Positions 49,571 through 51,230 of a stretch of DNA of 64,000 nucleotides are shown one piece after another; the stretch's first letter is position 1; each line of letters starts with the position of its first letter. The notes under the pieces are model-generated. The model had not been told where the DNA came from. It ran no database searches and saw only the letters and a list, made by a program, of their open reading frames with translations. Origin of the DNA: Chromatiales bacterium (GTDB lineage: Bacteria; Pseudomonadota; Gammaproteobacteria; SpSt-1174); assembly GCA_014762505.1 (NCBI GenBank), contig JABURS010000042.1:206877-270876 (forward strand). Direction: 5' to 3'. The position numbers and the translations under genes were made by a program.

Positions 49571-49589
49571 GGGAAGTCTGTGCGCCAGA

Positions 49590-49688
49590 GAGGTCACAGA
49601 GGACACAAAGGTCAGGGAGCACCGATTTAACACTCTGCCCTCTGTGACCTCTGTGGCATGAACACATAGGGCGGCCCATGGCCGCCCT
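49590..49688. repeat. Dispersed intergenic repeat beside folD
   Basis: GAGGTCACAGAGG (49590-49602) and its complement CCTCTGTGACCTC (49640-49652) are inverted around about 37 bp. Then a palindrome AGGGCGGC-CCATG-GCCGCCCT lies at 49668-49688, 6 bp past the folD stop, where it could end folD transcription. Both elements recur together after bioA (27285-27419). Confidence 0.65.
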
Positions 49689-50674: not shown

Positions 50675-50991
50675 TGGTGCCCGGGGCCGGGCTCGAACCG
50701 GCACGGTGTCGCCACCGAGGGATTTTCTTACCAGCTACGGCTTTCGCCGCCGATCACTCGTTTGTGGTCTGGACTTTCTCTTCGCCCTATCGCCGCGACT
50801 GCAGGCGACGTAGGCGGGGGCCGTCAAGTCTCTACACGTTCCCTGCCTCGCAGGGCTTCGCTCGGGATTGCCACCACCTGTGGACGGTGCTGAGGGTTCC
50901 CCGAATTTGACCCCATTCACGCGGGGCGTTTCCAACCCCGGTGCTCAAACGACTTCAAGTCCCTTGCGTCTACCAATTTCGCCACCCGGGC
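50675..50991 (-). tRNA. tRNA-Leu(UAA) interrupted by a group I intron
   Basis: The 5' exon is 50991-50957 (35 nt, ending at U34 of the anticodon) and the 3' exon 50726-50675 (52 nt, starting at A35 and including encoded CCA). Joined, they give an 87-nt tRNA: acceptor GCCCGGG/CCCGGGC, anticodon stem AGGGA/TCCCT, loop CTTAAAA, a long variable arm and T-loop GGTTCGAGCC. The intron (50956-50727) must be removed for the tRNA to work. The gene is the last of a Gly-Cys-Leu set, the same order as E. coli glyW-cysT-leuZ. Confidence 0.93.
50727..50956 (-). other. Group I intron (230 nt) in tRNA-Leu anticodon, cyanobacterial tRNA-Leu type
   Basis: It lies exactly between U34 and A35, the site of the cyanobacterial/plastid tRNA-Leu(UAA) intron. 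Blocks recalled from the Anabaena intron are present in order: TTTGAGC (guide), CAAATTCGGGGAA, GGCAATCCCGAGC-AAGCC, GTGTAGAGACTTGACGG and AAGAGAAAGTCCA, and the last intron base is G. The exon CUU can pair with GAG of the guide to give the U-G wobble at the splice site. No open frame for a homing endonuclease fits. This is a subgroup IC3-like, probably self-splicing intron. Confidence 0.9.
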
Positions 50992-51003: not shown

Positions 51004-51077
51004 TGGAGGCTGAGCCCGGAATCGAACCGAGGTACACGGCTTTGCAGGCCGCTGCATCACCACTCTGCCACTCAGCC
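51004..51077 (-). tRNA. tRNA-Cys(GCA)
   Basis: 74 nt including encoded CCA: acceptor GGCTGAG/CTCAGCC, anticodon loop CTGCAAA with GCA, T-loop GGTTCGATTCC. It lies between tRNA-Gly and tRNA-Leu on the same strand. Confidence 0.95.
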
Positions 51078-51083
51078 GGAGAT

Positions 51084-51149
51084 GACGAGGTGGGGATGAT
51101 AGCACCTCGTCCTGGAAAAGAAAAAACCCCGGCGATGCCGAGGTTTTTT
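51084..51149 (-). terminator. Terminator hairpin(s) between tRNA-Gly and tRNA-Cys
   Basis: On the minus strand AAAAAACCTCGGC-ATC-GCCGGGGTTTTTT (51149-51121, one mismatch, T tract) is a strong terminator after tRNA-Gly. A second 9-bp inverted repeat (GACGAGGTG/CACCTCGTC, 51084-51111) lies before tRNA-Cys and encloses a TATCAT that could be the -10 box of a separate tRNA-Cys-Leu promoter. Confidence 0.7.
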
Positions 51150-51154
51150 GAAGC

Positions 51155-51230
<76 letters not shown>

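Follow-up and report, generated by a model that had tools for sequence, protein, structure and literature searches.

A group I intron in the anticodon of the sole tRNA-Leu(UAA) gene of a Chromatiales bacterium

The tRNA-Leu(UAA) gene on the minus strand at 50675-50991 of our window, by which we mean the whole 64,000-nt stretch of Chromatiales DNA analyzed here, is split between U34 and A35 by a 230-nt intron. We consider it very probable, at roughly 93%, that this is a functional, free-standing group I intron without an open reading frame (ORF), residing in the only tRNA-Leu(UAA) gene of the genome. It is a further example of a known element with precedents within its own class, and the surprise is modest. 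The more interesting lead is that tRNA-Leu(UAA) introns are common to many phyla and to phages, some of them with homing endonucleases.

An interrupted gene and its place in the genome

When introns are allowed, ARAGORN reports a tRNA-Leu at c[50675,50991] with (taa)i(36,230), that is, with an intron after base 35. The intron-aware search proposed in a sequence-only reading of this DNA thus recovered, here by ARAGORN, the interrupted tRNA-Leu(UAA) at the same positions and with the same 230-nt intron which that reading had given. Run on the window in its default mode without introns, ARAGORN missed tRNA-Leu(UAA) and called only tRNA-Cys, tRNA-Gly, and tRNA-Ser, which illustrates how a group I intron in the anticodon can cause an essential tRNA gene to be lost to standard annotation. 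In 20 shuffled windows (1.28 Mb), the intron mode called three intron-containing tRNAs of any type; their introns measured 149, 164, and 33 nt, and tRNA-Leu(UAA) was not among them. The interrupted gene and its upstream cluster neighbors are laid out as follows.

50957-50991, minus strand: 5' exon of tRNA-Leu(UAA), 35 nt, ending ...GGGACUU, the final U being U34 (ARAGORN intron mode, sequence, intronless homologue L062)
50727-50956, minus strand: group I intron, 230 nt, with its omega-G end at 50727 (RF00028 at 50.1 bits, covariation, ARAGORN)
50675-50726, minus strand: 3' exon of tRNA-Leu(UAA), 52 nt, starting with A35, CCA encoded (ARAGORN, sequence)
51004-51077, minus strand: tRNA-Cys(GCA), upstream cluster neighbor (ARAGORN)
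51155-51230, minus strand: tRNA-Gly(GCC), upstream cluster neighbor (ARAGORN)

Joining the exons yields an 87-nt tRNA with a 7-bp acceptor stem, a 5-bp anticodon stem, a UAA anticodon, a long variable arm, and an encoded CCA. The 3' splice junction reads ...GGUAAG/AAAAUCC and includes the terminal omega-G, confirming the earlier observation that the intron ends in G; the three conserved blocks named in that reading are all present in the same order. The Rfam group I model, which had been suggested as a check, matches from 50966 to 50749 over its full length (RF00028 Intron_gpI, model positions 1-253, E 8.3e-11), although the score of 50.1 bits barely exceeds the gathering score of 50. The intron contains no ORF and hence no endonuclease gene, and its G+C content of ~62% matches that of the locus. 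Other Rfam matches in the window (mir-3622, MIR173, PsrR1, and rnk_pseudo) scored under their own cut-offs and were dismissed.

The locus lies in a uvrY-uvrC-pgsA-tRNA-Gly-Cys-Leu context; the sequence-only reading had likened the order of its tRNA cluster to that of E. coli, where leuZ has no intron. A genome of the same family (G002) carries an uninterrupted tRNA-Leu(UAA) in the equivalent Gly-Cys-Leu cluster (...GGGACTT/AAAATCCC...) and so offers a natural empty site. Together with the ARAGORN call, this empty site bears out the claim that the insertion between U34 and A35 occupies the cyanobacterial and plastid position. No tRNA-Leu(UAA) gene was found in G001, the sole genome of the same genus, which is 75% complete. 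A hairpin resembling a terminator and flanked by T runs on either side lies between tRNA-Gly and tRNA-Cys (51110-51150) and is retained in G002; a separate promoter may therefore serve tRNA-Cys and the interrupted tRNA-Leu. Elsewhere in the window, between a glutamate-synthase-like gene and folD (49577-49666), there is a long imperfect inverted repeat (CAGAGGTCACAGAGG...) whose Rfam microRNA matches are sub-threshold and surely due to chance.

This intron is the only Intron_gpI match in the 2.77-Mb genome. Among 43 matches in a genome-wide tRNA search, the leucine anticodons CAA, UAG, CAG, and GAG were found, and UAA only at the window locus. Although its completeness is rated at 100%, the genome is spread over 43 contigs, so that a second tRNA-Leu(UAA), which this search did not find, is unlikely rather than impossible. 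In eight window genes around the locus, UUA serves as 15 of the 294 leucine codons; since UUA is in use and no other UAA tRNA-Leu was found, the interrupted gene must yield a working tRNA. The sequence-only reading had raised a second intact copy elsewhere as a sign that this one might be a relic. That the locus is dead and UUA is served by a different tRNA seems to us barely credible, given that no further UAA tRNA-Leu turned up in a genome with this completeness rating and that both the tRNA exons and the intron core are intact.

The group I fold and its predicted splicing

Our structural evidence comes from an alignment of the window intron with 41 tRNA-Leu(UAA) introns (42 sequences) from Gamma-, Alpha-, and Betaproteobacteria, Acidobacteriota, Bacteroidota, and Cyanobacteria. 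Group I helices were drawn from the window sequence, and their pairs were then counted in the alignment. Standard pairs occupy 95.4% of pair cells; taken alone, this share is a biased measure, as the window sequence itself supplied the helices. Compensatory changes are stronger evidence for the fold: 31 of 48 pairs vary on both sides, and the covariation score is 0.506, whereas shuffling the partners gives 0.162 +/- 0.008 and sliding them gives 0.05-0.12. The elements of the fold are these.

50944-50959, minus strand: CUU/GAG guide pairing and its extension (CUU/GAG invariant in 42 sequences; extension read off the sequence)
50918-50943, minus strand: P2 hairpin (both partners change in 7 of 7 counted pairs)
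50909-50914, minus strand: P3 5' strand, GGGGUC (both partners change in 4 of 6 pairs; pairing in 100% of cells)
50862-50904, minus strand: P4 enclosing P5 (P4 is 50900-50904 with 50862-50866, 100% of cells paired)
50837-50860, minus strand: P6 and P6a (pairing in 100% and 98% of cells, with compensatory changes)
50826-50830, minus strand: P7 5' strand, GACUU, of the guanosine-binding helix (alignment pair counts)
50817-50822, minus strand: P3 3' strand, GGCCCC (alignment pair counts)
50783-50816, minus strand: P8 hairpin (compensatory changes)
50772-50776, minus strand: P7 3' strand, AAGUC (alignment pair counts)
50730-50768, minus strand: P9.0 enclosing P9 and a GAAA-loop hairpin (P9.0 is 50766-50768 with 50730-50732; hairpin at 50738-50749)

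The guide pairing noted in the sequence-only reading proved invariant across the alignment, with U-G at the splice site in 42 of 42 introns, and an intron UUU beside the guide might form P10 with AAA, the opening bases of the exon. In the varying P3 pairs, G-C, C-G, U-A, and A-U interchange with pairing retained; in P7, relatives have A-U, U-A, or C-G at one end pair, and the remaining four pairs are invariant. Of the helices as drawn, P5 is the weakest, with 63% paired cells. At aligned core columns where at least 85% of relatives agree, the window intron never deviates, and the sole column flagged in this check is a loop base absent from most of them. P1, P3-P9, the U-G pair, and omega-G are therefore all present, and covariation supports the P3/P7 pseudoknot, which speaks against the lack of a foldable P3-P7 core that the sequence-only reading had named as refuting. 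The minimum free energy structure of the intron alone (RNAfold) did not contain the native core, as is expected because P3 and P7 form a pseudoknot, and it was only modestly more stable than shuffles (z -1.9). The window intron belongs to group I; assignment to subgroup IC3 would follow from its alignment with cyanobacterial tRNA-Leu introns.

Cyanobacterial tRNA-Leu(UAA) introns share with it the U34/A35 insertion, the CUU/GAG guide with the invariant U-G, the core helices, and the conserved strings, and differ in forming a clade of their own, as described below. Phage tRNA-Leu(UAA) introns such as that of Atu_ph07 likewise have the same tRNA, site, and core, but are mostly shorter (~200 nt) and are spread over several tree positions. 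Another close counterpart is the tRNA-Leu(UAA) introns of Beggiatoa (BOGUAY) and Thiomargarita nelsonii, which were reported as putative and of undetermined type (PMC4853749). The Azoarcus tRNA-Ile and Agrobacterium tRNA-Arg(CCU) introns are also small, ORF-less group I introns of proteobacterial anticodon loops, and differ in the tRNA and the exact position. The core strings of the window intron presumably resemble those of the Azoarcus intron. Our 120-intron tree places an Arg(CCU) intron (L094) outside the tRNA-Leu group, in a set that lacks the authentic Azoarcus sequence.

From this fold, the window intron most likely self-splices to give the cell its sole UUA-reading tRNA, in a reaction predicted to be guanosine-dependent. 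P7 would bind a guanosine for the attack after U34, the freed 3'-OH of the exon would then attack after omega-G, and the joining of U34 to A35 would complete the UAA anticodon. Alternatively, splicing might depend on a host protein, as could be expected from chloroplast counterparts, which have largely lost autonomous splicing (PMC9275481). We regard such dependence as improbable, because the compact, G+C-rich core retains every well-conserved position and because the Anabaena tRNA-Leu and Azoarcus tRNA-Ile introns are known to self-splice (cited in PMC3984707 and PMC2729099).

Distribution among bacteria and phages

A search pattern built from the 3' half of the window intron and the exon junction was present in 18 of 370 gammaproteobacterial genomes in an even draw (~5%) and in 8 of 397 genomes across the phylum, while a reversed control pattern gave 0 matches in the same two samples. 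The grouping in the sample appears to follow GTDB, in which Gammaproteobacteria take in Betaproteobacteria. A scan of ~85,000 species genomes returned at least 119 matches, and by ARAGORN in intron mode most of those listed sit in tRNA-Leu(UAA). Their hosts, among the matches listed, include Caulobacter, Brevundimonas, Sphingomonadales, Bradyrhizobium, Burkholderia, Thiohalophilus, Methylobacter, and Tahibacter among the proteobacteria, as well as Acidobacteriota, Phaeodactylibacter, Planctomycetota, and Cyanobacteria; Bacteroidota are also among the phyla with an intron at this site. ARAGORN intron calls such as Phe-AAA, Ser-AGA, and Tyr-ATA at the equivalent junction look like shifted tRNA-Leu(UAA) readings or are unverified, and were left uncounted.

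Intron-split tRNA-Leu(UAA) genes are thus not restricted to cyanobacteria. The sequence-only reading, which held that proteobacterial tRNA introns reside mainly in tRNA-Arg and tRNA-Ile, does not stand on this point, since introns of tRNA-Leu(UAA) are widely dispersed among Alpha-, Beta-, and Gammaproteobacteria. Nor does the rarity that it implied, given the gammaproteobacterial frequency above and the occurrence of the intron at this site in several phyla and many phage contigs. Putative tRNA-Leu(UAA) introns had been reported earlier from the gammaproteobacteria Beggiatoa and Thiomargarita (PMC4853749), and a 2014 review of tRNA genes listed only Cyanobacteria, alpha-, and betaproteobacteria for such introns (PMC4033280).

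Among viral contigs, at least 120 stretches match the intron pattern, and most of those listed read as tRNA-Leu(UAA) with an intron of ~200 nt at the U34/A35 site (contigs L117-L196 and others). Genes adjoining some of these copies are phage genes, encoding a baseplate hub, RIIA, and DNA ligase. One copy lies in the cultured jumbo Agrobacterium phage Atu_ph07 (L356, 2994-3355), where the tRNA-Leu(UAA) gene with its group I intron is unannotated and the intron is not mentioned in the paper describing the phage (PMC6102473). A 2014 review stated that the phage group I introns then known were all in protein genes (PMC3984707); this background is from the open-access literature, and we do not claim that the phage copies are previously unreported. 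The exact cyanobacterial pattern found no match in the viral contigs, and blastn of the window gene found none in named phages.

Several relatives of the window intron are larger, with ~690-nt introns containing a ~155-residue ORF (L109, L243, L244, L249, L273, L280, L338, L340, and L345). Where tested, the ORF matches HNH endonucleases (PHROG 10822, E 8e-48; Pfam HNH_3, 1e-6 to 5e-4), and in the gammaproteobacterial and acidobacterial cases it is antisense to the tRNA. These ORFs appear to be the usual equipment of intron homing and a likely means of spread.

Kinship and history of the intron

We built maximum-likelihood trees of 120 introns and of 95 rows without the introns of other tRNAs, each over ~210 columns. 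The free searches converged incompletely, and support values are rough. The larger tree places the window intron in a 25-row, nearly all gammaproteobacterial clade that also holds two Acidobacteriota and one phage (100 bootstrap, 99 SH-aLRT), and the same clade recurs in the smaller tree (99/99), with the cyanobacterial introns as one separate clade (100/99-100). The sequences best matching the window intron are ~80% identical over 192 nt, and the top twelve are all gammaproteobacterial. We do not read the trees as separating the window intron from the cyanobacterial introns, because AU tests leave their union unrejected: the tree was no worse when gammaproteobacterial and cyanobacterial introns were constrained together (p-AU 0.685), and placing the window intron alone with cyanobacteria was not rejected (p-AU 0.447-0.557). 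What the trees support is that the window intron belongs to a mainly gammaproteobacterial clade, with no claim on the origin of that clade.

Such a clade speaks for long residence in gammaproteobacteria, in which some members lost the intron and homing endonucleases or phages occasionally exchanged it, and we favor this history for the window intron. A recent horizontal acquisition, whether the donor was a cyanobacterium, a phage, or a different proteobacterium, would account for the absence of the intron from G002, the closest sampled relative having the locus, for its low frequency in the gammaproteobacterial sample, for the nesting of Acidobacteriota and one phage intron within the clade, and for the HNH homing endonucleases encoded in relatives. 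We nevertheless judge it rather unlikely, since there is no near-identical source and the nearest sequences are from other gammaproteobacteria, the G+C content of the intron matches its locus, and the intron is without an endonuclease.

The tRNA-Leu(UAA) intron is usually told as an ancient cyanobacterial and plastid inheritance. Quite tentatively, it may instead be one circulating lineage, present in many phyla and in phage tRNA genes and moved by phages and HNH endonucleases, of which the gammaproteobacterial copies would be one long-settled branch. The phage copies themselves do not form one clade (p-AU 0.035 for a single clade). Phage copies and endonuclease-bearing relatives make the question of vertical descent versus transfer directly testable for the trnL intron.

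The searches also brought up group I introns in other settings. In a separate and larger set of gammaproteobacterial genomes they sit at the anticodon of tRNA-Gln(CUG), and single cases are assigned to tRNA-Lys, His, Asp, Ser(GCU), Met/Ile(CAU), and Arg(CCU) (L032, L033, L035, L038, L039, L069, L070, L075, L076, and others for the whole set); the tree places all of them away from the tRNA-Leu introns. Two introns of the tRNA-Leu(UAA) lineage (L042 in G048, and L342) are assigned by ARAGORN to tRNA-Leu(CAG) and tRNA-Leu(CAA) and are possible moves to a different leucine tRNA, taking the boundaries as ARAGORN sets them. Five further gammaproteobacterial matches (L102, L104, L105, L110, and L111) adjoin or overlap the 3' end of tmRNA, a gene in which introns of the T-loop are already known (PMC11915505).
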